From Leptotrichia trevisanii DSM 22070 (lineage in GTDB: Bacteria > Fusobacteriota > Fusobacteriia > Fusobacteriales > Leptotrichiaceae), in assembly GCF_000482505.1 (NCBI RefSeq), contig NZ_AXVL01000034.1, positions 1 to 32,960 of the forward strand: a stretch of DNA of 32,960 nt, given 5' to 3'. Position numbers and translations under genes: made by a program. The notes below the pieces were generated by a model, which had not been told where the DNA came from, did no database searches, and worked only from the letters and a program-made list of their open reading frames with translations. This document shows positions 3,180-15,641 of this stretch, piece by piece; position 1 is the stretch's first letter, and each line of letters begins with the position of its first letter.

Positions 3180-3692
3180 ATGAATTTAAAAAAACAAATG
3201 TTAATCAGTACATTTGCGATATTAGCAATAATGAGCTGTGGAAAAAAAGATGAAGCCCAAAATGCGGATCAGGATGAAATTCAGATTGAACAACAAAGTG
3301 CCGATGCTACAACTAACAATTCCCAATCTAACCCACAGGAAGCACAGCCAGTTGTAGAATCCTCTGAAACTATTAACGAAAATGCCAACAATCAGCCTCC
3401 TTCTCAAGTAAAACCAGAAGAAGTAAAGGCTAGCCAGACTTTACAACATGTGGACAAACTTATTGGTAAGGAAATCCCAATGGAAGATAGAATTTTAGTA
3501 TTTTCTAAAGAAAACAACCAATACAAGATAACTTATAAAGGTGAATCTGAAAATGGAATGCAAACAGATACCAAAAATCTTACTTTTAATGAAAAAAACG
3601 ACAGTCTGACAGATGGTACCTATACATTTAAACTGAATAAAAATAAATTAGGCTTATACGCTGGAAATCAATTCATATTTACAGTTGACTAA
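3180..3692 (+). CDS. Small lipoprotein of unknown function
   Basis: The 170-residue product has a lipoprotein signal: a short basic start (MNLKKQ), a hydrophobic core and a lipobox ending IMSC at about residues 17-20. It should be exported and lipid-anchored. Residues about 21-90 are low-complexity, rich in Gln, Asn, Ala and Glu, and look like a flexible linker. A compact C-terminal part (about 95-170) has alternating beta-like segments (RILVFSKENNQYKITYKG, DGTYTFKLNKNKLGLYAG), which suggests a small beta-sandwich or barrel. I do not recognise a family. It has its own promoter and terminator and stands alone between the cold-shock gene and the island. Confidence 0.75.
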   Translation: MNLKKQMLISTFAILAIMSCGKKDEAQNADQDEIQIEQQSADATTNNSQSNPQEAQPVVESSETINENANNQPPSQVKPEEVKASQTLQHVDKLIGKEIPMEDRILVFSKENNQYKITYKGESENGMQTDTKNLTFNEKNDSLTDGTYTFKLNKNKLGLYAGNQFIFTVD

Positions 3693-3718
3693 TCCCATCA
3701 AGATTAATTCCTAGAAAT

Positions 3719-3770
3719 ACACTCAAGTAGTTAAATTATAGATTTTTGTAGCTACCTGAGTGTTTTTTTT
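3719..3770 (+). terminator. Rho-independent terminator of the lipoprotein gene
   Basis: The arms ACACTCA-GTAG and CTAC-TGAGTGT pair with one unpaired base on each side and a long loop, followed directly by eight T residues. It lies 27 bases after the stop at 3692. Confidence 0.85.
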
Positions 3771-3900
3771 GTAATTGTATTCATATTTAATACTGATAGT
3801 AAACCCTATTTAAATAACGAATTTATTATAAATCTTTTTGGTAAAGGATTAAAACCTAGTATTTATGTAATTTCCTTAAAAAGCAGTTTTAATTGATTTG

Positions 3901-3930
3901 TACTATTTAAATAGCAAATAGTATAAAATT
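3901..3930. repeat. Island hairpin repeat, copy 1
   Basis: A 30-base element with a palindromic stem (TACTATTT and AAATAGTA) and trailing TAAAATT. The same element occurs at 14279-14308; the differences between the two copies fall in a five-base block in the loop. Both copies have the same orientation and both end exactly 25 bases before the stop-codon end of a minus-strand island gene. No T run follows on either strand, so it is not an ordinary intrinsic terminator. Confidence 0.6.
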
Positions 3931-3955
3931 AGAAAAATTAATAAATTTCAATTTT

Positions 3956-4840
3956 TTATTCAATCGTAATTTTTCTTGGAATAATCCTTTTTTTCTGAGC
4001 AATTTCCCTATCTTTCCCCAAATTATCCAAAATTTTGATTAAATACTGATAAAGTTCCTCGTTACTATGATTCTCATGTTCCATTTGTAATTTTAAATTA
4101 ACATAGGCAATTATAACATCTCTCTCCACACTTCCGTTTAAGCAATTTACATAAAAATTAACATCATAAATATCCAAATTTGCCTTTTTGGAAGCCTCTT
4201 TTCCAAATAGTTCCAAAATTTTAGGATGAAGTGTCCCAAATTCATGTCTTGAAGAACATTTTGTATTTATCAGTTCCAGCAAGTTAAAATCACGTCTTAA
4301 ATCTATAAAACTATTATAATCATTTCTAAGTTCCGCCCCAACTCTTGTAATAAATCGTGTTATTTCAATTTCTCCAATTTTCTTTCTTCTAGTATTTTCA
4401 ATATTATCAGCACTCACTTCTAATTGATTATTCAAATCAAATTCATTTTTAGTAAATCCATCTTCATTCTTTATTTCAATATTTTCTCCATTATTCAAAA
4501 TTTCTAGTGAAAAATCAGCACTTCTAACATAAAATTTTCTTTCTTCAAAGTCTGAAAGCAACTTTAGTTTTAAAACATATCTATTCTCGATTTCAGGCAT
4601 ATCAAATTTATAATCCTCATTCATCCAAAAAATTTTTCCACCACATTTCACAATTCCTTTTGTTACTGTCACTTGCTTATTTTCTGTATCTGCAACAAGA
4701 TTAAATCCTGAAATTATTCCATCTTTTCTATCCAAATACAATAATTCTGTCAATTCAGCTGGATTATCCCTCAATAAATCAAGTGCCTCCTTACTTATTA
4801 CCTGTCCAGTCCCAAATATCGGATACTTATTTTCAACCAT
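3956..4840 (-). CDS. Putative baseplate/tail-fibre-like protein of the injection island
   Basis: The 294-residue protein has no signal peptide or membrane helix. Residues 5-75 (YPIFGTGQVISKEALDLL, then DGIISGFNLVAD, VTVTKGIVKCGGKIF) resemble N-terminal domains of phage baseplate and tail-fibre proteins, where a 'G.v.GF.v......vtV..G.a...G' pattern forms a beta-domain binding the baseplate. The middle part (about 90-165) is beta-rich; the C-terminal 130 residues are helical and highly charged, with a conserved-looking IDLRRDFNLLELIN segment. It starts 23 bases after the sheath-like gene stop, with GGGGG just upstream of its ATG, so the two are co-transcribed. Order after the sheath gene and the phage-like N-terminus suggest a structural or adaptor role; I cannot assign it to TssK, TssE or TssF with confidence. 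Confidence 0.45.
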   Translation of the reverse strand: MVENKYPIFGTGQVISKEALDLLRDNPAELTELLYLDRKDGIISGFNLVADTENKQVTVTKGIVKCGGKIFWMNEDYKFDMPEIENRYVLKLKLLSDFEERKFYVRSADFSLEILNNGENIEIKNEDGFTKNEFDLNNQLEVSADNIENTRRKKIGEIEITRFITRVGAELRNDYNSFIDLRRDFNLLELINTKCSSRHEFGTLHPKILELFGKEASKKANLDIYDVNFYVNCLNGSVERDVIIAYVNLKLQMEHENHSNEELYQYLIKILDNLGKDREIAQKKRIIPRKITIE

Positions 4841-4863
4841 TTTTCCCCCATTTTTTTATCTTA

Positions 4864-7029
4864 CTAATTTTTATTAATTTCAACTTGTAAATTCTTCAAG
4901 TTTCCTGCAAAAGTTATATTTAACTGGCAAATTCCATTATCCACATCAATTATATGCGACAAGTCATCCCCTTTTTGCATAATTCCATTTACAAATTTTG
5001 TATCTTTTAACCATACTGATTTCTGACTTTCAGGATTTGTGCTGAAAAATATATTCAACTTGTCTTCCTTAAAGTCTGTTGTTATAAACCTTAGCGTTCT
5101 TTCGATATACGTTGTCGTAAGTGTCTTGTAAAGCGGTTCATAACCTCCATCCAGATTTTTTAGCAAAGTTCTTGCCTTGTATACAACTATATTCCGTATT
5201 TTTTCACGTGCCACATTCGCATTATCCGATGAAAATACAAATCCATAGTTAAACTGATTTATCCTATCTTTTATTGTATTTGTAAATCCTGATATTTCCT
5301 TAGACATTGTTGTTTTTGTATGATAAGAATTGTCCTTTTCCTCAATATCAAAACGTACTCCTGGATACTGTGGTGATACGTTTGAAAATCTTTCTTTCAA
5401 GTAATTTGGACATTGCGTAGCACCAATTATTCCAGCTGCAACATATGACGCATCAACATATACGCCTTCTATCCAGAATTTTAACAAATCTTCCTGTTCT
5501 TTTGAAAGTGATACCCCTGTTTCTTCTTCAAATTTCATTTTATAATCCAGCATAACACCTGATTTATCCTTTGGAATTATAGTAAAATTAGGAATTACTG
5601 GTATTAAATATTCAGAATATTTCTGATTTTCCAACACTTGGGTCTTTTCAATATATTTATCCACACCCATTGTAGCTAGATTGTCAAACGAAGTTTCAGG
5701 CTTTCCTTCAAAATTAAAAAATACTTGAACTCTATATTCTGCCAGCACAGTCATTAAATTTGTCAAAACTTCAACTGTATTTTTCTCAGTTTTCTCATCT
5801 TTTTTACTCCCCATAAATCTTTCACGAACTTTTTTCTCAGATTTTTTCATCTCCAAATCAACATTTGGATAAATCCCAAACCATACAGTATTGTTAAAAT
5901 CATTCTTTTCATTAGTTGTGTTCAAAAATGCTCTCAATTTATCCTTATTTCCAGCCTTTACAATCATTTCAGGCTTTATATTTGTAATCAAAAGCGTCGG
6001 TTTCATAAGCCCCATTCTCACATCATACTGTTCAAAAAACATTTTTACACCCAATATTTTTTCAATCAGAGGTTTCGCAATTTTTATAAAATCCTCCTGT
6101 GCCGACTTATAAAACGCCAAATAATTGTTATAATTTTCAACTTCCTGCTCAGGATCAACATCCACAAATGTCTTTGCAAGCGGCACAAACGTTCTAACAA
6201 CCAAATCGCTAATATATTTATTCGGCTCATCTGTCACATTTTCATAGTCATCTTTAAAAGCCTCAACTAGAGCCGTCGTATTTTTCTCTTCAATCATTGC
6301 AAGTGAAGTTTGATTTTCCTGCTTATACTCAATTACTTCAAGTTCCCCTTTTTCTCCTACTTGCAGCATTCCCAGCTTTATTTTCTCTGATTTAAAATTA
6401 TTTGTATCATTTCCAATTAAAAGCCGAGTTTTTATATCTTCAATCGCAAGTGGCAACATCCCAAGTACATTACTGTAATTTTCCGAAGCCTCCTCAAATT
6501 TTGAGTTAAGTTTATCCCCTAATTCCAGTTTTTTAGGATTCTCATCATCCAATTCTTCATATTTCTGATAAATATACGCAATCTCTTTTCTCGTTTGTTT
6601 AATATCCTCGATAACCTTTTTCGGTGAAATTAACTCCAAAATATTTTCAAACTTAAAATCCACATTCCTGTTCCCTTGCGACTTTCTAGCCTCAATCAAG
6701 GTACTAAGCATTTTAAAAAACGTATTTCCATTATTAATCTTAATTTCTGTCACAAGATCCTCAGGCACTCCCTCCGGCTTTTTCAAAATATACTTAATAC
6801 TCTGACTCTCTGCATCAAAATAACTGTACACCTTTGGATCAAATTTTTCCAAAAATTCCTCAAAACTCCCAACTAAAAGGTGCTTGTTAATCTCAATAAC
6901 ATTCTCATCATCCAGCGAATCCATATCCCTCGCATCATTAATAAGTGTCAAGATATCCATTTTCTCTGGATTAATTTCCTCAAATAAAATCGTTCGATTA
7001 GTCTGATTTATAACATTTTTATTCCCCAT
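4864..7029 (-). CDS. Putative contractile sheath protein, TssB-TssC-like fusion
   Basis: The 721-residue protein has no signal peptide or membrane segment. Residues about 45-200 follow the TssB/VipA pattern: a strand with FEEFLEKFDPKV, then SIKYI, then FENILELISPKKVIEDIKQT and a charged helix (family: 'FdevL..i.P.l...v.n......l.F.sl.DFsPd.v..qvp.L..l...R'). Residues about 230-721 follow TssC: VEVLTNLMTVLAEYRVQVFF with the start of a 'F...l.tmgvdkyi' segment, YSEYLIPVIPNF, the NQFNYGFVFSSDN part and a final strand GICQLNITFAGNLKNLQVEI like the TssC end. The combined length matches TssB plus TssC. I choose the ATG at 7029 because the duplicated copy at 8754 shares this start and AAAAGGAAA leader, while upstream codons diverge. 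The gene is followed by the baseplate-like gene. Assignment is by pattern; no profile was run. Confidence 0.5.
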   Translation of the reverse strand: MGNKNVINQTNRTILFEEINPEKMDILTLINDARDMDSLDDENVIEINKHLLVGSFEEFLEKFDPKVYSYFDAESQSIKYILKKPEGVPEDLVTEIKINNGNTFFKMLSTLIEARKSQGNRNVDFKFENILELISPKKVIEDIKQTRKEIAYIYQKYEELDDENPKKLELGDKLNSKFEEASENYSNVLGMLPLAIEDIKTRLLIGNDTNNFKSEKIKLGMLQVGEKGELEVIEYKQENQTSLAMIEEKNTTALVEAFKDDYENVTDEPNKYISDLVVRTFVPLAKTFVDVDPEQEVENYNNYLAFYKSAQEDFIKIAKPLIEKILGVKMFFEQYDVRMGLMKPTLLITNIKPEMIVKAGNKDKLRAFLNTTNEKNDFNNTVWFGIYPNVDLEMKKSEKKVRERFMGSKKDEKTEKNTVEVLTNLMTVLAEYRVQVFFNFEGKPETSFDNLATMGVDKYIEKTQVLENQKYSEYLIPVIPNFTIIPKDKSGVMLDYKMKFEEETGVSLSKEQEDLLKFWIEGVYVDASYVAAGIIGATQCPNYLKERFSNVSPQYPGVRFDIEEKDNSYHTKTTMSKEISGFTNTIKDRINQFNYGFVFSSDNANVAREKIRNIVVYKARTLLKNLDGGYEPLYKTLTTTYIERTLRFITTDFKEDKLNIFFSTNPESQKSVWLKDTKFVNGIMQKGDDLSHIIDVDNGICQLNITFAGNLKNLQVEINKN

Positions 7030-7047
7030 TTTCCTTTTAAAATTATT
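6836..7047 (-). repeat. Direct repeat copy A: 5' end of the sheath-like gene
   Basis: About 212 bases containing the ribosome site, start and first 67 codons of the sheath-like gene are repeated at 8561-8772 in the same orientation. By eye there are about eleven mismatches, nearly all in the distal third; roughly the last 95 bases up to and including the ribosome site are identical. A second block of similarity, the promoter region, is at 7071-7160. Confidence 0.9.
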
Positions 7048-7129
7048 TTCCATATTATATTTTAAACAATACTTCAAATAACTTCAATTCCCCTTTCTTT
7101 ATGTTTTTAATTTATTTTTAATTAATATA

Positions 7130-7158
7130 ATGATACACTATAATTAAGATTTTGTCAA
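7130..7158 (-). promoter_or_regulatory. Promoter of the sheath-like gene
   Basis: On the minus strand TTGACA (7153-7158) and TATCAT (7130-7135) are separated by 17 bases. The surrounding bases match the promoter at 8904-8932 closely, showing that the duplication included the promoter. Predicted leader about 95 nt. Confidence 0.75.
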
Positions 7159-7188
7159 TATCATTATTTTCAATTTTATTTTTAAATT

Positions 7189-8133
7189 TTATTCTGTATA
7201 ATAAACATTTTCTCCTTCACCACTTATATCCCCATTTTCATGAAATGTCAAAGAGCCCTTTATTTTCCCGTTTTCATAATATTCAACATATTTTCTTTTC
7301 CCATTCTTATAAATTATTTCAGAATGCAATTTTCCATTCTCAAAATATGTTCTAAACTTGCCATTTCCATTAACTACTTCCCCCTGATCCCTTATTGAGC
7401 CATCCTTATTATAATCCGCCCATTTTCCTTCAATTTCACCATTTTTATACATAGTTTCTGAACTTATTCTACCATTCTTATAATAAGTAATACTCTTACC
7501 GTGTATAATTCCATTCAAATAATTAGTTACAGTAGCCAACTTGCCATTTTCATAATAATATCGCCCTTCTCCATGTCTTTTACCATTCTTAAAATTCTCT
7601 TCTACCTCAATTTCTCCATTATCAAAATATCGTATTTCCTTTCCATTTTGAATATTATTTTTATATTCTAATATCCAATATATTTTACCGTTCTCATTAT
7701 ACCAGTATTCCTTTCCTTCAAGTTTTCCATTTCTATAATTTGCTTCTCGAAGTTTTGTACCATTTTGAAAAAAAGAAATAGTTTTTCCTTCTCTCCTATT
7801 GTACGAATTATCATCTCTTCCCCAACAATCATATTCATCTGTTGCCTGATATATTTCATTTAATGTTCCGTCTAAATCATGTTGAGTAATTAAATATGTT
7901 CCATTATTTTTTTCATGTAAAACTCTGTAATATTTTGCTCTTTCTTTTCCTTTTGTAATATTACAAGAATCATCAAAATATCCAATAAATTTCCCTTTTT
8001 TCTCAAATTCTTTTATATCTGAAATTATTTTTTGATATTTTTTATCAATTTTATTATCTGCCATACAGGATATACTAAAAATAAAAAAATACATCATTAT
8101 TATATTTTTTATAATTTTATTTTTTAATCTCAT
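7189..8133 (-). CDS. MORN-type-repeat lipoprotein, putative immunity protein
   Basis: The 314-residue product starts with a lipoprotein signal (basic MRLKNKIIKN, hydrophobic core, lipobox ending SISC at residues 20-23). From about residue 100 to the end it is built of roughly nine or ten repeats of the form YxxNGKI...YKNGxxxGK, for example YFDNGEIEVEENFKNGKRHG and YYKNGRISSETMYKNGEIEG. This is the MORN_2/YwqK-type repeat (PF07661), often called an antitoxin repeat because members sit beside toxins. The start at 8133 has GGAGAG eight bases upstream. It begins 30 bases after the stop of the M15 chimera, in the same transcript, so I infer that it protects the cell envelope from that peptidase. 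It could also be a general surface protein. Confidence 0.65.
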   Translation of the reverse strand: MRLKNKIIKNIIMMYFFIFSISCMADNKIDKKYQKIISDIKEFEKKGKFIGYFDDSCNITKGKERAKYYRVLHEKNNGTYLITQHDLDGTLNEIYQATDEYDCWGRDDNSYNRREGKTISFFQNGTKLREANYRNGKLEGKEYWYNENGKIYWILEYKNNIQNGKEIRYFDNGEIEVEENFKNGKRHGEGRYYYENGKLATVTNYLNGIIHGKSITYYKNGRISSETMYKNGEIEGKWADYNKDGSIRDQGEVVNGNGKFRTYFENGKLHSEIIYKNGKRKYVEYYENGKIKGSLTFHENGDISGEGENVYYTE

Positions 8134-8163
8134 AATTACCACTCTCCATAATTCTATATTTTT

Positions 8164-8754
8164 TTAAGGTGTATAACTCAATTTATTTCCTCTATCTTTA
8201 TAATCTTGGTAATGTTGACTTGCTGTTTTACCAAATCTAAATTGAAAATGTGGTTTGTCTTTAAACTTAATTCCCCATTCTGTACCAAATTTTACAGCTT
8301 CATTATTAAATAATTTATAATCTTTTTCTCTCCAGTATGCTTTTTCATTTTCTATTGTACAAACATCAATAGCTAAACCGTAATTATGATAACTGTATCC
8401 TGCTTTAACCCGTGTTACTACAGGCCCTTTTGTTGTTCTCCCTTTTTTATAAAGTTCATTTTGCTGAGCATGACTTCTGTATCCATCTGTGACTCTCATT
8501 CTTACCTTATATTTATCTTCCATAAAATTTATCAAATGTTTTACTGTACATCTTATTCTAGGATCTAATTTTTCCAAAAATTCTTTAAAGCTTCCAACCA
8601 AAAGATGCCTGTTAATCTCAATAACATTCTCATCATCCAGCGAATCCATATCCCTTGCATCATTAATAAGCGTCAATATATCCATTTTCTCTGGATTAAT
8701 TTCCTCAAATAAAATCGTTCGATTAGTCTGATTTATAACATTTTTATTCCCCAT
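8164..8754 (-). CDS. Chimeric effector: sheath N-terminus fused to M15 peptidoglycan peptidase
   Basis: Of 196 residues, 1-67 copy the start of the sheath-like protein at 4864-7029: the first 48 are identical and five conservative or charge changes follow (K49R, E57K, F63L, K66R, V67I). Residues 68-196 are a complete M15 (VanY/Ply500-type) domain: VTDGYRSHAQQNELYKKGRT, then SYHNYGLAIDV and TEWGIKFKDKPHFQF. H123, D130 and H169 are the expected zinc ligands and E159 the likely catalytic glutamate. This family cleaves peptide stems of peptidoglycan, typically the L-Ala-D-Glu or D-Ala-D-Ala bond. No signal peptide is present, so delivery must come from another route; the sheath-derived N-terminus may be the loading tag or only a scar of the duplication. 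A MORN-repeat lipoprotein gene follows after 30 bases. Confidence 0.8.
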   Translation of the reverse strand: MGNKNVINQTNRTILFEEINPEKMDILTLINDARDMDSLDDENVIEINRHLLVGSFKEFLEKLDPRIRCTVKHLINFMEDKYKVRMRVTDGYRSHAQQNELYKKGRTTKGPVVTRVKAGYSYHNYGLAIDVCTIENEKAYWREKDYKLFNNEAVKFGTEWGIKFKDKPHFQFRFGKTASQHYQDYKDRGNKLSYTP

Positions 8755-8772
8755 TTTCCTTTTAAAATTATT
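8561..8772 (-). repeat. Direct repeat copy B: 5' end of the M15 chimera
   Basis: This is the counterpart of 6836-7047, at an offset of 1725 bases. Homology ends sharply at codon 67 on the coding side and just beyond the ribosome site on the upstream side; after an unrelated insert of about 70 bases, similarity resumes over 8847-8934, which holds the promoter. Confidence 0.9.
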
Positions 8773-8903
8773 CTTAGCATCATATAAAAATTAATTACTG
8801 GCTATCAACTTTTTGCAATCCATTTAAACCAATTTTAGACGATATTCCAAATAACTTTATTTTCCCCCTTCTTTATATTTTTAATTTTTTTTTAATTAAT
8901 GTG

Positions 8904-8932
8904 ATGATACAATAAAATTTAAGATTTGTCAA
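8904..8932 (-). promoter_or_regulatory. Promoter of the M15 chimera and its lipoprotein
   Basis: On the minus strand TTGACA (8927-8932) and TATCAT (8904-8909) with a 17-base spacer, nearly the same as the sheath promoter at 7130-7158. Leader length is about 145 nt because of the extra bases between promoter and gene. Confidence 0.75.
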
Positions 8933-9037
8933 TATTTATTGTGACTGATCTTATTAATTTTGTAGAATTATTCTCACCTTATTATCTTATACTTTACATT
9001 TGAATTTGAAGTAGAATTGTAGAATTCTTCACATCAC

Positions 9038-9991
9038 TCAAAAGACATTTCTACTTTCCACAACTTTTACATTTTCAAAATTTTTTCCACTATATTCAAA
9101 TATCTTTCCAGCATCATAAATATAAATAATATTTTTATAGAGTATAAGACTCACATTTTTATAATCCATTATTTTAATTTCTTTTATTACTTTTTTATTA
9201 TTATATTCATCTACTATCATAATTTTATTATTTTTTAGAATATATGCTGGACTACAAAAACTATCTTCGATTTGATTGTCAAAAAATTTTTCTGCTCCTC
9301 TATTTTCATTTTCTGTCCATTCTTCAGATGTTATAGGTTCAATTTTTTCTAATTTCTCTATAACTTCATCTATCTTTTTCAATCCATATCTTCCATCTAT
9401 ATAATAGTTACCATGTTCAACTTCAATAGTTATAGTTTCCAATATTTTTTCTATTTCTTCTTTTGAATAATTTTTTTCTAAAAATTCAAAAAAACTTTTT
9501 TTATAAAAACTCTTTCTACCTGCATCTATATTTGAATTTGGTAACCCATTATTATATTCTGATATTTCTGCAACTAAATATTCCATTATTTCTAGCTTAT
9601 TGATAACCCAATCTAAGTTATGCTCTTCTTCTTTTTTTAACAATTCCAACATTATTTCTATGATTTTTTTTATTCTTTCTTCTTTTGGTAAATTTTCAAA
9701 AATTTGAGAACTGTCTCTTAATTTTATTAAATTTTTTTCTTTATTTTTTATATATTTTTTTAAAATATTATTACTTGAAACATTAATGCAGTCATATCGA
9801 TCATTTGAAAAAACATAATCTAAATAAGAGTATTTTTTAAAAAAATCTTCTAAACTTGATGTTTCTTTTTTATTTTGATTTTGAATTTTCACTTTTTTCA
9901 TATCCTCCTTGTTTTTTAAAGTTGTATTTTCTTTGTTTTTAGCACCACAGGAAATTGTTAATAAAACTAGTGGAATTATTAATTTTTTCAT
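9038..9991 (-). CDS. Lipoprotein of unknown function, putative immunity to the DUF4280 effector
   Basis: The product (317 residues from the ATG at 9991) begins MKKLIIPLVLLTISC, a clear lipoprotein signal with the modified Cys at residue 15. The start is chosen because GAAAGGG lies six bases upstream; the in-frame ATG at 10009 would cover this site. After a Lys-rich linker the body is helical and highly charged (for example YSKEEIEKILETITIEVEHG), and the last 60 residues look beta-rich (KNNKIMIVDEYNNKKVIKEI, NVSLILYKNIIYIYDAGKIF), perhaps a small propeller-like or beta-sandwich end. I do not recognise a family. It starts 65 bases after the large effector gene, which is the usual place for an immunity gene, and being a lipoprotein it would act where a peptidoglycan enzyme acts. 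Confidence 0.6.
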   Translation of the reverse strand: MKKLIIPLVLLTISCGAKNKENTTLKNKEDMKKVKIQNQNKKETSSLEDFFKKYSYLDYVFSNDRYDCINVSSNNILKKYIKNKEKNLIKLRDSSQIFENLPKEERIKKIIEIMLELLKKEEEHNLDWVINKLEIMEYLVAEISEYNNGLPNSNIDAGRKSFYKKSFFEFLEKNYSKEEIEKILETITIEVEHGNYYIDGRYGLKKIDEVIEKLEKIEPITSEEWTENENRGAEKFFDNQIEDSFCSPAYILKNNKIMIVDEYNNKKVIKEIKIMDYKNVSLILYKNIIYIYDAGKIFEYSGKNFENVKVVESRNVF

Positions 9992-10056
9992 TTTATACCC
10001 TTTCTTCATATAAAAATTTATAATTATCTAAAATGAAATCTCAATAAAATATATAC

Positions 10057-13000
10057 CTATTTGTTTATTTTATTAGATACTCTCAATCTAAATTTTATAA
10101 GTTCATTATGATTTACAACTTTTTTTTCCTCTATTTTTTTAATAAATTTTATTATTTCATTAAATAAATCTTGAGACCCTTGTGTAACGTATCTATCCCC
10201 ATTTCTTTTATAATTTCTCGCAGGTGCCAAACATCCTTCTAAACCAGAACTTACTCCAACTGGATGAATTAAAACAAATCTATTTTCATGAATTAAAACT
10301 TTTTTCTTTAATCTTTTATGTTCTAAACCTTGAGGATTTTCAGTATGATTAAAAACACCTACTGCTAAATACCCTTTCCGTATTATTTTTCCGTTTTTTA
10401 TTTTATCAGGTCTTTGATGCCATCTCAATTGATGCATACCTTGTACAATTCTCTTTTTTCTACCAGAAACAATCGTATCAGGACCTTCTCTCTCAACTAC
10501 ATATCCATTAAATCCAGAAACTTCCCTACCACTAGGATCTAATATACGAAATGTAGATAATGTACCTAATGAACGTTCTTCTATTCTCACAACATCTAAA
10601 ATATATTTCCCTTGTACTCCAGTATGTGGACATGTTTTACAACTCGTAACTGCTTGAGAACTTTTAGTATTATTTTGACTCTTAGCATTACTTTCTGTTT
10701 TTGTATTTTTACTAACAGATTTTACAGTATTAGATTTTGAGTTCAGAACATTTGACTGATATTTAGCTGTATTCTCCTTGATTTCCATTTTAGGACTATT
10801 ATCACTTTTTTTCTGTGTAGTATTATTAGATTTTGAAGAACTATGAGTTTCATCCCACACTCCTTGACTAAACGGGCACACCGCCACACTTCTTCCATTT
10901 TTTCTTATGGCATTTAACACATCTCTCGCAGTTGGAGCATGTTTTGTAGAGGTATAAAGCATTTTCCCTATTCCAATCCAGTTTGACACATCTGATGATT
11001 TTATTCTTTGTTTTGGAATTGTCTTTGTCTGTTTTACATTTATTTGTATTTTGTAGTTCTGTAATTTTATCTGTTCTGTATTTATAGTATTTACATCACT
11101 ATTTAATTCTGATTCAATCAGTTTTTTTGCATTTTCTGTTATAGTCAGATTTCCAGCACGCATTAAATACCCATAAGTTATTACAGGGAGCATTTTTGCA
11201 GAATAAAAACGTTTTCTTTCGTAATCACACAAACTTAAGCCATAGTTTTTTATTATCCCTTTAGTATCAAATTTAGGCCCTGATTTTTGTTTTACACTTT
11301 TATAGGCTTCCTTGAATGTGGCATAAATTCTTTTTCTTAAATATTTTTCTTTTTCCGAAGTAACTTCCTGATTTGCAATTTGCATTTTTGCCTTATTTTT
11401 CTTTATGAAATTTTCTTTGTCTTTCTTTTCAAAATCAGTTAATTTTCTCATTCCAAGCATATTTTTTACATCCTTTGAAAAATATGAACGCATGTTGTTC
11501 ATTACTCCAGTTTTATATCTCTTCCACTTAGCAAAGTTCTGTGCCTCTTTTTTTAATTTCGTCTGCATAAAATTATTGTTTACATCACTACAAATGTTTA
11601 TTAACAGCCTGTATTGACAATCCGCATCTCTTACAGCTTCCTTAAATTCCTTAGCCTTAGTAACTGCTGTTCCCACTTCCTTTTGCCCAGCATCATCAAT
11701 GCTTATCGTTCCACCGTGCATACATTGTATAGTCGAAATATCCAATAATGCAGGCTTATCCCTCACTTTTACATCTGTATTTTTCTCCCACGCCCCTATT
11801 AACGCAGGTTGGCAAATTCCAATAGCACTACAGGACTTAAACGGCTGTATTTTAGTATCATTTATATTTGCCTGCTTTCCTCCTTTAAGCATAACTCTAT
11901 CCTCATTTATTATTAACCTACTAATATCCTTTCCAAGTGTACACTTTAACATGCAGTTAGTATTTACAAACAGTTCCCCAGTAGGATTTATAACATTCTG
12001 CAAGTCATAAAATGATTTATAAAAGGCGTACAAGTCCATAGAATCAATATTTGCCGCATAATCTCTTAATTCCTTGCTGTCCTTAAATAAAGCCTGAATA
12101 ATACTTTTATCTTTCTCAAAATCTGAATCATCCCTGTAATTTTCATAGACTTCATCAATCAAATTGCTTATTTTTCTGATATTTCGCACTTTTATAGCTG
12201 ATTTTGAAGTTATCCAGTCATTAAGAACAGTAGTTACCCTTATATCTTTTCCAATTTTTTGAAGCCTGCCAAATAGTCCCATTTCACTTTTCGAAGGCAA
12301 ATCTATTCCCTTGTGTTTTTTTATATACCATAACAAATAATTTCTCACTATGTTACTATCTCTGTATTTATGGTTATCAAAATACTTAATTTCATTTTCT
12401 TCCTTAAATCCAGTCTGTACCTTCAAAAATTCAATTATTATATTGTCAATCAGTCTTCTTGACAAAGGAAATTGCCTAACTCCATTTTCGTCCATCAAAT
12501 AAGTTTTTTCATATTCCAGCTCATTTTTACCAAGTTCCCTTATCAAATTTTCACATCTTGTCTTTTGCAATTCTGATGGCTGTTTTTTACTAACTTTTAT
12601 AACAATTTCGTCAATATCCTTTATTCCTTGCATATATTTATCATATTTTTCAGGCAATTTATTTTTTTCAATCTTAACTTCCTCATCTTTTACATGTATT
12701 TGAATCACGCCTTGTATTTTATCCACATAATCATTTTGCTTCTTAAATTTATTTACTGGTTTTTTATCAGGAAATTTCACATATTTTGCCGAATATTGAC
12801 TAAACACATATTCTAAAGATTCCACAGCACTTTTATTTGGAATAGGATACGAATAAATATAATAAACTATATCCTGAATCCGCAAAACTTCATTATTTTC
12901 TTCCCTTCCTCTTAAAATATCAAACCCATGCTGTCTTATCACATTTCCAATATTCCTGTTATCTTTGGTTGCCTCGTCATACATTTTCAAAATAACATTT

Positions 13001-14100
13001 ATGTCTTCCTTGTTCTCTTCCAACACCTTTTTCCCAGTCTTAGTTTCCAAATATTTTACATAATCCTGATTATAAACATTTTCATCTTGAAACTTAGCTT
13101 GCAATCTCTTTAAAATAGCCTCTTCTGGACTTACAAAAGCTAATTCAGGAGCTTTCCCGTTTTCAGCTCTATCCCTCTTATACTCTTCACTATCCCAGAC
13201 TTCCTCAAATTTCTGCCCATTAAATGTAAACACTCCTACTTTGCTGTTATTTTCAGCATTTTCCATTTTTGCAGTATTTGATGTTGAAGCAGGCTTTTGC
13301 ATTTGTGTCGATTTTGGCTGGGAATTATTTGAAACATTAGTTTTAGGTTTCTGTTGGACTACTGCCTGTTTATTTATATTTTTGTTATCAGTTTGAGTAT
13401 GATTCTTCTCCACAACTTTATGCCCAACTTCACAATTATCTTTAAATCCAATGATTACTGATAAATCATATCCTGCTAAATTTTCAGCATAAAGTAAGGA
13501 AGGCATTGCATTTCCATCTACTGGTATTCCCCAGACACCTTTAAAATTATTCTCCAAAGCATTAGACATCGCACCTTGCCCACATAAATGTGATGCCGCC
13601 ATCATTCCAGATGATGTAAGCAAAAAACTTTTTCCCCTCAAATCTTCTGCTTTATATCCATACTTTCGTTTTTTCATCATTGTTTCTTTTACTATTTTTT
13701 CAGAAACCGTTACTTTTCCTGGACCTTTATAAATCGCATTTTTAGGAACTGATATGTTTTTACAAATTTTATCCTTATGTTTTTTCATAGTTGCCCATCT
13801 CATCTTTACAGAACGCATCATAACTTCATCCTGAGCTGCAGGCGTATTTAAAAAACTACGTTTACCTGTTAATTTCCATTTTGTTGCACCTTCACCAATA
13901 AATCTAGCATTTGCCCAAGTTGAACCTTTTGGAAGCCAACCCATATCCATCAGAACATCTGTTCCAATTTGATATTTTCCGATATAAGAACTTTGATCTG
14001 CTAAATTATATTTTCCACCACTTTCCAATATCGCTAATTTTTCAAAAAATTCAACTGCACTATCCCCAATATCTACCCCATTAAATTTCCTGTTTACCAC
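10057..14100 (-). CDS. Multidomain DUF4280 (PAAR-like) effector with two cell-wall domains
   Basis: The 1347-residue protein starts at a GTG nine bases after GGGGG. Domain 1 (about 15-215) is lysozyme-like: FFEKLAILESGGKYN with probable catalytic E26, then SYIGKYQIGTDVLMDMGW, as in transglycosylases carried by phage tails and VgrG proteins. A Lys/Asn/Gln/Ser linker follows (about 230-285). Domain 2 (about 705-803) is DUF4280 (PF14107): TNCMLKCTLGKDISRLII, FKSCSAIGICQP and IQCMHGGTISIDDAGQ, a PAAR-like fold with paired Cys expected to cap a spike. Domain 3 (about 1155-1347, after a Ser/Asn linker and CKTCPHTG) ends with FVLIHPVGVSSGLEGCLAP, resembling DUF5675 or L,D-transpeptidase active sites (H...GC). 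It has no signal peptide. The likely role is a contractile-system spike effector attacking peptidoglycan; a lipoprotein gene follows as possible immunity. Confidence 0.7.
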   Translation of the reverse strand: MVNRKFNGVDIGDSAVEFFEKLAILESGGKYNLADQSSYIGKYQIGTDVLMDMGWLPKGSTWANARFIGEGATKWKLTGKRSFLNTPAAQDEVMMRSVKMRWATMKKHKDKICKNISVPKNAIYKGPGKVTVSEKIVKETMMKKRKYGYKAEDLRGKSFLLTSSGMMAASHLCGQGAMSNALENNFKGVWGIPVDGNAMPSLLYAENLAGYDLSVIIGFKDNCEVGHKVVEKNHTQTDNKNINKQAVVQQKPKTNVSNNSQPKSTQMQKPASTSNTAKMENAENNSKVGVFTFNGQKFEEVWDSEEYKRDRAENGKAPELAFVSPEEAILKRLQAKFQDENVYNQDYVKYLETKTGKKVLEENKEDINVILKMYDEATKDNRNIGNVIRQHGFDILRGREENNEVLRIQDIVYYIYSYPIPNKSAVESLEYVFSQYSAKYVKFPDKKPVNKFKKQNDYVDKIQGVIQIHVKDEEVKIEKNKLPEKYDKYMQGIKDIDEIVIKVSKKQPSELQKTRCENLIRELGKNELEYEKTYLMDENGVRQFPLSRRLIDNIIIEFLKVQTGFKEENEIKYFDNHKYRDSNIVRNYLLWYIKKHKGIDLPSKSEMGLFGRLQKIGKDIRVTTVLNDWITSKSAIKVRNIRKISNLIDEVYENYRDDSDFEKDKSIIQALFKDSKELRDYAANIDSMDLYAFYKSFYDLQNVINPTGELFVNTNCMLKCTLGKDISRLIINEDRVMLKGGKQANINDTKIQPFKSCSAIGICQPALIGAWEKNTDVKVRDKPALLDISTIQCMHGGTISIDDAGQKEVGTAVTKAKEFKEAVRDADCQYRLLINICSDVNNNFMQTKLKKEAQNFAKWKRYKTGVMNNMRSYFSKDVKNMLGMRKLTDFEKKDKENFIKKNKAKMQIANQEVTSEKEKYLRKRIYATFKEAYKSVKQKSGPKFDTKGIIKNYGLSLCDYERKRFYSAKMLPVITYGYLMRAGNLTITENAKKLIESELNSDVNTINTEQIKLQNYKIQINVKQTKTIPKQRIKSSDVSNWIGIGKMLYTSTKHAPTARDVLNAIRKNGRSVAVCPFSQGVWDETHSSSKSNNTTQKKSDNSPKMEIKENTAKYQSNVLNSKSNTVKSVSKNTKTESNAKSQNNTKSSQAVTSCKTCPHTGVQGKYILDVVRIEERSLGTLSTFRILDPSGREVSGFNGYVVEREGPDTIVSGRKKRIVQGMHQLRWHQRPDKIKNGKIIRKGYLAVGVFNHTENPQGLEHKRLKKKVLIHENRFVLIHPVGVSSGLEGCLAPARNYKRNGDRYVTQGSQDLFNEIIKFIKKIEEKKVVNHNELIKFRLRVSNKINK

Positions 14101-14278
14101 AATTAATTTCCCCCTTTTAATTTTAAAACTTTCACAAAACTAATTTTATTAATTTTAAAAAAGCAATCACACCCTTTCTTTGTATACTAAAATACTAAAT
14201 CTCATTAAAAAATAGAAATTATATTAACAATAAAAAATTTTAAACTAATAATATATAATTTAAAATTTATAAAATATC

Positions 14279-14308
14279 TACTATTTAAACGGAGAATAGT
14301 ATAAAATT
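14279..14308. repeat. Island hairpin repeat, copy 2
   Basis: This matches the element at 3901-3930 in 25 of 30 bases; the differing bases are contiguous and lie in the loop, while both stem arms and the trailing TAAAATT are kept. It ends 25 bases before the stop-codon end of the LRR lipoprotein gene. Confidence 0.6.
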
Positions 14309-14333
14309 CTTATTTATAATTACTTTTTATAAA

Positions 14334-15641
14334 CTACTTTAACTGGCTCTTATGTATATAGCCTTTCATATAATATCCTCCATCTTTATTATAAAAATAC
14401 ACATATTTCCAGCCTTCTTCATTTGAAATTTCCTCAACTGCAACATTATTCGCTAATTTATGAATTATGGAACTGTCTGAACCATGGTTTTTTCTTACAT
14501 TAACAACATTTTCCTTTGAAGCTGTTATAAAAATTTTACCTGTTCTCTTAGGTGATATTAGTCCAAAATCTCTAAATTCTTCACGCCACATCTGTTCACT
14601 TTTCATATCCGTTATTGCATAATTTGTCCCTCCACTTGCTGCAACTATTGATAAAAACAGATTGTTTCCATCGATACTTTCCAATTGTGAATTTAAATTT
14701 ACTATATCTCTTACAATCACTTTTCCATTTTTCGTAAAAAAAGTTTCACTATTTGATTGTCCTGCATAGACAAAAGGATAAGTAAGAGTGTATATTGAGT
14801 AAACATTATTTGTAAAAAAAGCTGCTCCCTCCACTTTATCATCCGCTTCTTCAGAATTTTTATTATATTCATCAACTATCTTGTAAACTTCTTTTGGAAG
14901 TTTATCCAGTGCAATTTCCTTTGTAGAAAGCTCTTTTATAATTTTTACTGTTTCAAAACCATATATTTTACTTTCAAATTCTGAAAAATTAGGATATTTT
15001 ACTTCATTTTTCCTTTTTGCAGTGAGTTCTGGGTATCTTTGCTCAATAAATATTTTTTCAGGAATCATAAAATTACGATAATTTTCATATACATAATCTA
15101 CTATTTCCTTTGGAACTTCCCGTAATTCCAGTCTTTTTAACCTTTTCAATCCAGAAATTTCTCCTACTCCATTTTTTAACGGATTAAAACTTATATCCAG
15201 ATGTTCCAATTTTGTTAATTTCCCAATCCCTCTAATATCACTTATTTTATTGTTATGTATCCATAGTTCCTTTAAATTGGATAAATTTAATAACGGTTTT
15301 ACATTTTCTATCTGATTAAAATTTATTTTTAAAACTTCCAATTTTTTCAGGTTTCCCAACGGTTTTACATCCTTGATTTTATTCCAGCGTAAATCTAGAA
15401 CTTTTACATTTTTATAATTTGCAATACAGCTTATCTCCTCCAATCCTTTATTTTTTAATTCTATTTTTTCAACATTAATGTTATATTTTCCTAGTTCAGT
15501 ACAGCTTTTATCTTGTCTGGAAATTGTATGGATTTGTGTCATTTGTTCATTTGTACTTTTATTTTCTTGCAATTCCTCACTTTTGCTATTACTGCAAGCC
15601 ATAAATATTAGAAAAATTAGTATTCCAAGTGTATTTTTCAC
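14334..15641 (-). CDS. Leucine-rich-repeat lipoprotein with C-terminal SH3-like domain
   Basis: The 435-residue product starts at a GTG five bases after a perfect AGGAGG and has a lipoprotein signal (MKNTLGILIFLIFMAC, Cys at 16). Residues about 55-175 are five or so internalin-type leucine-rich repeats with the LxxLxxLxLxxNxIxDixPL pattern (KVLDLRWNKIKDVKPLGNLK, LKELWIHNNKISDIRGIGKL). A middle part (about 200-365) is of unknown fold. The last 65 residues (about 365-435: FITASKENVVNVRKNHGSDS, then GWKYVYFYNKDGGYYMKGYI) form a bacterial SH3-like domain of the kind that binds cell-wall peptides. It should sit on the outside of a membrane. It heads the island, upstream of the DUF4280 effector; it may be an immunity or adhesion factor. 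Confidence 0.75.
   Translation of the reverse strand: MKNTLGILIFLIFMACSNSKSEELQENKSTNEQMTQIHTISRQDKSCTELGKYNINVEKIELKNKGLEEISCIANYKNVKVLDLRWNKIKDVKPLGNLKKLEVLKINFNQIENVKPLLNLSNLKELWIHNNKISDIRGIGKLTKLEHLDISFNPLKNGVGEISGLKRLKRLELREVPKEIVDYVYENYRNFMIPEKIFIEQRYPELTAKRKNEVKYPNFSEFESKIYGFETVKIIKELSTKEIALDKLPKEVYKIVDEYNKNSEEADDKVEGAAFFTNNVYSIYTLTYPFVYAGQSNSETFFTKNGKVIVRDIVNLNSQLESIDGNNLFLSIVAASGGTNYAITDMKSEQMWREEFRDFGLISPKRTGKIFITASKENVVNVRKNHGSDSSIIHKLANNVAVEEISNEEGWKYVYFYNKDGGYYMKGYIHKSQLK

Follow-up and report, generated by a model that had tools for sequence, protein, structure and literature searches.

A gene of Leptotrichia trevisanii DSM 22070 encoding a protein of 721 residues is likely to specify the contractile sheath of an injection system that resembles the type VI secretion system (T6SS) and is common to Fusobacteriota and Bacillota. 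T6SS-type machines have been described in Gram-negative bacteria, in which the sheath is built from two proteins, TssB and TssC. The analysis presented here, of a 32,960-nucleotide stretch of DNA (contig NZ_AXVL01000034.1; the window) and of the relatives of this gene in other genomes, supports a T6SS-like sheath that is made as one chain and begins with a TssB-like region.

The gene is read on the minus strand, from an ATG at 7029 to a stop ending at 4864, and the plus strand of 4864-7029 contains stops throughout. These are exactly the coordinates given by an earlier sequence-only reading of this DNA, and the motifs quoted there also lie where they had been placed, FEEFLEKFDPKV at residues 56-67 and ISPKKVIEDIKQT at residues 134-146. 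An in-frame TTG at 7077 is an alternative start that would add 16 residues; the ATG at 7029 is preferred because homologues begin with it and a ribosome-site-like stretch, AAAAGGAAA, lies upstream. That this is a real gene is borne out by its family and by strong purifying selection, dN/dS against other Leptotrichia copies being 0.026-0.035 (about 0.03).

The family is widespread. Ninety-five rows of about 720 amino acids were collected, 37 of them non-redundant at 90%, from Leptotrichiaceae, other Fusobacteriota, Bacilli, Clostridia and Halanaerobacter; the minimum pairwise identity is 40%, and identity between phyla is mostly 50-59%. Matches occur in 34 of 100 genomes of relatives (which were also searched again with the family alignment), in most of which the homologue has a similar length and, as a rule, no internal stop, in 30 of 300 sampled Bacilli genomes, nearly all at full length and one as a weak fragment, and in 9 of 391 Clostridia genomes. 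One clostridial genome (G435:C2:3179804-3184927; loci L074 and L081) carries a tandem pair of sheath genes separated by 0.8 kb, and the L081 gene sits on a longer branch (0.57). The tree groups the window-type copies in a single clade (100/100), which lies within the Leptotrichiaceae sheath genes. Neither Pfam, NCBIfam nor the PDB sequences contain a meaningful match to the 721-residue protein or a name for its family, and PHROGs returned just weak, unnamed matches. Matches to Cbl_N, CotZ_rel, phrog_7925 and parvoviral NS1 are short and not common to the family, and were rejected as chance. No relative was present among the viral contigs, phages and plasmids of IMG/VR, INPHARED and PLSDB, so that, in those collections, the family is a bacterial chromosomal one and not a phage gene.

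The function of the protein is best approached through its neighbours. Among 80 distinct family genes followed by at least 600 bp of sequence, 69 have a gene of a ~145-residue tube family next downstream, on the same strand and within 400 bp. Ten of the 11 exceptions are Leptotrichia window-type copies, that of the window included, and the other is locus L046. Twenty of 30 members of the tube family match Pfam TssD, which is the Hcp of Bacteroidota T6SS (best E 1.6e-5; below the cut-off in the one member with bits given), and the sole PDB sequence found with the tube profile at E<=10 is Hcp1 (6bdc, E 0.1). Judged by these profiles, the ~145-residue protein is a relative of Hcp/TssD, the tube protein of T6SS. 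Four clostridial clusters (L047, L043, L079 and L080) have two consecutive tube-family genes, as would be the case for a tube and a tube initiator or cap.

Other genes of the clusters are also reminiscent of T6SS. A VgrG-like protein compares with VgrG at an hhalign P of 1.2e-9 and matches Phage_GPD and an OB domain, and the clusters of Paenibacillus, Clostridium and Leptotrichiaceae jointly hold genes for this protein, a DUF4280 PAAR-like protein, FHA, a Ser/Thr kinase, PP2C, DnaJ and an Hsp70-like protein, an inventory that is pooled between clusters, with not each gene checked in each of them. FHA, kinase and phosphatase genes accompany many T6SS (the PpkA-PppA-Fha pathway). IcmF-related TssM (PF06761) was not found in 13 genomes, and no ClpV gene was seen in the clusters read, where DnaJ and Hsp70-like genes are present. 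Three conserved candidate families (248-300, ~430 and ~230 residues) gave no match to T6SS component profiles, and TssE, TssF, TssG and TssK were not recognised. In locus L057 (G034:C1:1355000-1374999), genes for a ~220-residue protein and a ~280-residue lipoprotein alternate for about five repeats (3622-14621), between the tube gene and genes like those of the ~430- and ~230-residue families; the array looks like stacked effector/immunity pairs.

Because of the adjacent Hcp/TssD-like tube gene and of the clusters with VgrG, PAAR-like, FHA, kinase and PP2C genes, the 721-residue protein is very probably a contractile sheath, and the sheath role first read from the sequence thus gains support from its genomic setting. 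It is highly improbable that the protein is some other structural component, e.g., of a baseplate, cap or adaptor, with a borrowed or mimicked TssB-like domain. Such a reading could appeal to the mostly >50% identity between phyla, which is high for a sheath, to the ten Leptotrichia genomes that carry the gene without a tube gene, beside a 294-residue partner, and to a sheath role that is without direct structural support; against it, sheath genes usually lie immediately ahead of the tube gene, as those of this family mostly do, and the clusters read showed no second candidate of sheath size.

A likeness to TssB was detected with hhalign and a profile built from the TssB sequences of plasmid-borne, annotated T6SS (13 sequences). 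The best match (P 0.003-0.016) covers residues ~88-148 over TssB columns 56-121; at its core lies segment 2 of Table 1, opposite the TssB stretch VDltFesmdDFsPaaIarkVepL. Segment 1 is weak alone (P 0.13) and collinear with the best match, and an insertion of ~50 residues splits the two. In a column-shuffled control the real score was 26.5 and the maximum 22.1, none of 300 shuffled profiles scoring as high; with an earlier, smaller TssB profile, 1 of 150 shuffles was as good. Chaining both segments gave nothing (2/300 shuffles reached the real value) since the first match overlaps the second. In an hhalign matrix of seven profiles of the system against 11 T6SS components, the sheath N-terminus and TssB compare at P 0.003, which stands among 77 query-component comparisons and is second only to VgrG with VgrG; no other T6SS component compares with the sheath N-terminus below P 0.18. 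The family also has a median HMM score of 3.5 bits against TssB, the 95th percentile of shuffled sequences being 1.6, and is favoured over reversed copies too, although the P-value of these scores is not to be taken at face value as the family sequences are related. Taken at modest strength, these comparisons are suggestive, not overwhelming, of a specific resemblance of the N-terminal ~200 residues to TssB. A phage family of 154 positions with no function given, phrog_28782, matches 11 of 19 family members (best 3e-4); in the two for which positions are given, the match spans residues ~116-169, the same stretch as segment 2. The phage family may itself merit a look.

Table 1. Features of the sheath gene and of its neighbours in the window.
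Feature	Residues	Coordinates	Strand	Basis
Conserved partner gene, 294 aa (family 248-300 aa)		3956..4840	minus	Family alignment
C-terminal part, in the place of TssC (putative)	~218-721	4867..6378	minus	Inferred; no sequence signal
TssB-like segment 2, VDFKFENILELISPKKVIEDIKQTRK	123-148	6586..6663	minus	TssB columns ~97-121 (VDltF.sm.DFsP..Ia..V..L); core of best hhalign match
TssB-like segment 1, LINDARDMDSLDDENVIEINKHLLVGSFEEFLEKFDPKV	29-67	6829..6945	minus	TssB columns ~41-80 (GVmsDl.G ... ID.dNFd..m....P.v); second-best hhalign match
Chimera, 196 aa: sheath-gene start + VanY/M15 peptidase domain		8164..8754	minus	Pfam VanY 2.8e-10
Predicted lipoprotein, 323 aa		9038..10009	minus	Directly after effector candidate; gene order shared with L050 and L055
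PAAR-like tip/effector candidate, 1347 aa		10057..14100	minus	Pfam DUF4280 2.1e-12 (residues 715-806), C-terminal DUF5675 3.8e-5

The C-terminal part is a different matter. The sequence-only reading had proposed a fusion of TssB and TssC, of which the TssB-like part stands, on the hhalign match described above, and the TssC-like part found no profile signal. The ~500 C-terminal residues showed no similarity to TssC in any profile test, the hhalign matrix included, and a 70-column comparison with TssC did no better than random windows. The curated profiles with which that reading had proposed to check the fusion, PF05591 (TssB/VipA) and PF05943, both stay below threshold on the 721-residue protein, as does PF17541 (PF05943 and PF17541 representing TssC/VipB). 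Nevertheless, the missing TssC signal says little, because the same method misses the relation between TssC and phage sheaths, although by structure the sheaths of T6SS and of phages share a fold family (PMC9230969): in a control, TssC itself gave no hhalign signal to the sheaths of P2, phiCD27 and phiKZ. On visual reading, the motifs succeed one another in a TssC-compatible way, down to the final pair of strands, where CQLNITFAGNLKNLQVEINK falls opposite GYYrAkFfLRPHYQLEGLtvSLRL. AlphaFold models (pLDDT 33 from the single sequence, 38 from a 19-row alignment) were too poor to superpose on VipA/VipB, and their Foldseek hits are meaningless. Separate genes for VipA (PF05591, 9 genomes), VipB (PF05943, 13) and TssC (PF17541, 17 selected genomes) did not rise over threshold in the sampled genomes, nor did PF17541 in 389 genomes scanned with it as a source of Bacteroidota TssC sequences. 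It is from size, position and this absence of separate TssB and TssC genes that we infer a TssB-TssC fusion, and whether such a one-chain sheath was fused or was never split are options of equal standing. Such a chain may, as the sequence-only reading suggested, fix the 1:1 stoichiometry and stand in evolution between phage/eCIS sheaths and the T6SS.

The lack of a TssC signal would also fit a contractile sheath of phage-tail, eCIS or tailocin descent, single-chain from the start, in which the likeness to TssB would reflect the general sheath fold. Phage and eCIS sheaths are indeed single-chain, and phiKZ gp29 has 695 residues. However, the family matches no Pfam or PHROG sheath family and has no relatives in IMG/VR, INPHARED or plasmids, and its tube is TssD/Hcp-like and its context T6SS-like (FHA, kinase, PP2C, PAAR-like). 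The P2, phiCD27 and phiKZ sheaths score at noise level, with no profile signal for the C-terminal part either; a scan with the phiCD27 sheath returned just near-identical prophages, too narrow a set for a deep phage-sheath profile. Descent from a phage tail is accordingly unlikely, and a T6SS-like sheath is the reading adopted below.

In the window the sheath gene lies together with the 294-residue partner and the 1347-residue DUF4280 gene. Six Leptotrichia copies of the sheath gene, that of the window among them, have the partner 24 bp downstream, and elsewhere the partner often follows the tube gene; our guess is a baseplate or adaptor protein. The 1347-residue protein, whose N-terminus reads lysozyme-like by eye, is the machine's probable cargo, and a 1451-residue relative (L055:3421-7776) is encoded in a fuller Leptotrichiaceae cluster. 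A DUF5675-like gene was read by eye in the Halanaerobacter cluster (L033:12894-13295). The 323-residue predicted lipoprotein is a candidate immunity protein. A MORN-repeat protein (7189-8142, minus) and an LRR/SH3 lipoprotein (14334-15641, minus) are encoded in the same strand run; an LRR gene also adjoins the DUF4280 effector in L055, so that the LRR protein may belong to the effector module. The 196-residue chimera, which lies 1.1 kb upstream of the sheath gene, is near-identical to it in DNA from ~20 bp upstream to about codon 60, with ~60-68 sheath codons shared, and is absent from the related locus L050. It may be a recombination product, a real tagged cell-wall enzyme or an assembly error.

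The apparatus genes of Leptotrichia are scattered, with tube and spike- or baseplate-like genes outside the window. In the same genome, contig C69 carries a lone tube gene and contig C33 a second set of sheath, tube and partner genes, and on contig C1 there are a divergent tube-like gene and a VgrG-like gene (by eye) as well as two genes that resemble the ~430- and ~230-residue families by position and length. The window copy has no tube gene beside it, the chimera nearby holds only a sheath-gene start, and C33 carries another sheath gene together with a tube gene; all this could mean that the locus in the window is relict or spare and has no injection role. This is quite improbable in view of the low dN/dS of the gene and of seven other Leptotrichia genomes (G001-G004, G008, G009 and G011) in which the window-type gene is the only sheath gene and tube genes lie elsewhere. 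For that reason, the window-type copy is probably the working sheath in those seven genomes.

In the proposed mechanism, the ~720-residue chain would polymerise from a baseplate round the Hcp/TssD-like tube, its N-terminal ~200 residues acting as TssB and the remainder as TssC, both halves within one polypeptide. Contraction would then push the tube and the VgrG-like spike, with DUF4280 PAAR-like tips or effectors, out of the cell. The cell-wall-active-looking domains of the tips (DUF5675 and the lysozyme-like N-terminus in the window) suggest bacterial targets and hence a presumed antibacterial use, and the neighbouring kinase, PP2C and FHA genes would regulate the machine. More speculatively, the Hsp70/DnaJ pair may replace ClpV in sheath recycling. 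Tentatively, and with rather less than even confidence, these genes may define a contractile injection system of a class of its own, in diderm Fusobacteriota and monoderm Bacillota, having a one-chain TssB/TssC sheath (fused or never split), an Hcp/TssD-like tube, no TssM, control by kinase, PP2C and FHA, and Hsp70-DnaJ for ClpV, and identical with the machine predicted from DUF4280 genes. A literature search, covering few subscription journals and no preprints, found no description of such a sheath, and an earlier description is possible. With this family, a sheath-tube gene pair is available in ~10% of the sampled Bacilli species, as well as in human oral Fusobacteriota, and the question of a Firmicutes injector thereby becomes accessible to experiment. 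A one-chain sheath of the TssB-TssC type, if true, would also bear on the origin of the two-protein T6SS sheath.

Compared with known systems, the Leptotrichia protein shares with TssB/TssC (VipA/VipB; PF05591, PF05943) the right order of the TssB-like segments, a similar overall length (173-184 plus ~495 residues, compared with 721) and a sheath gene beside a tube gene, with VgrG, a PAAR-like tip and FHA, kinase and phosphatase genes. In contrast to the T6SS sheaths, which consist of two proteins and are related to those of giant phages (Evseev et al., PMC9230969), it is one chain, has the ~50-residue insertion between the TssB-like segments and contains an unrecognisable TssC part, both Pfam profiles being below threshold. 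With T6SS subtype iii of Bacteroidota (TssD PF17642, TssC PF17541) the family has in common a tube that matches Pfam TssD, and DUF4280 PAAR-like proteins also figure in a paper on the B. fragilis T6SS (PMC11854122); it differs in its one-chain sheath and in that the PF17541 TssC did not pass threshold in the genomes searched. Phage, eCIS and tailocin sheaths (Phage_sheath_1, P2 FI, diffocin, phiKZ gp29) are likewise single chains paired with a tube gene, but no sequence match to them was found by Pfam, PHROGs, tblastn or hhalign. Finally, a phage-like translocation system in Gram-positives was raised as a possibility from DUF4280 (Lays et al., 2016, PMC5349215), and a 2021 survey of PAAR proteins (PMC8651086), which found Phage_GPD genes adjoining DUF4280 genes in Firmicutes in surroundings that lacked conserved genes of eCIS or T6SS, speculated that a system not yet known exists there. 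The 721-residue family, which shares the DUF4280 and Phage_GPD markers and Firmicutes hosts, is a strong candidate for the sheath of this machine; neither paper gives genes for a sheath or a tube, and our proposal adds such a pair.
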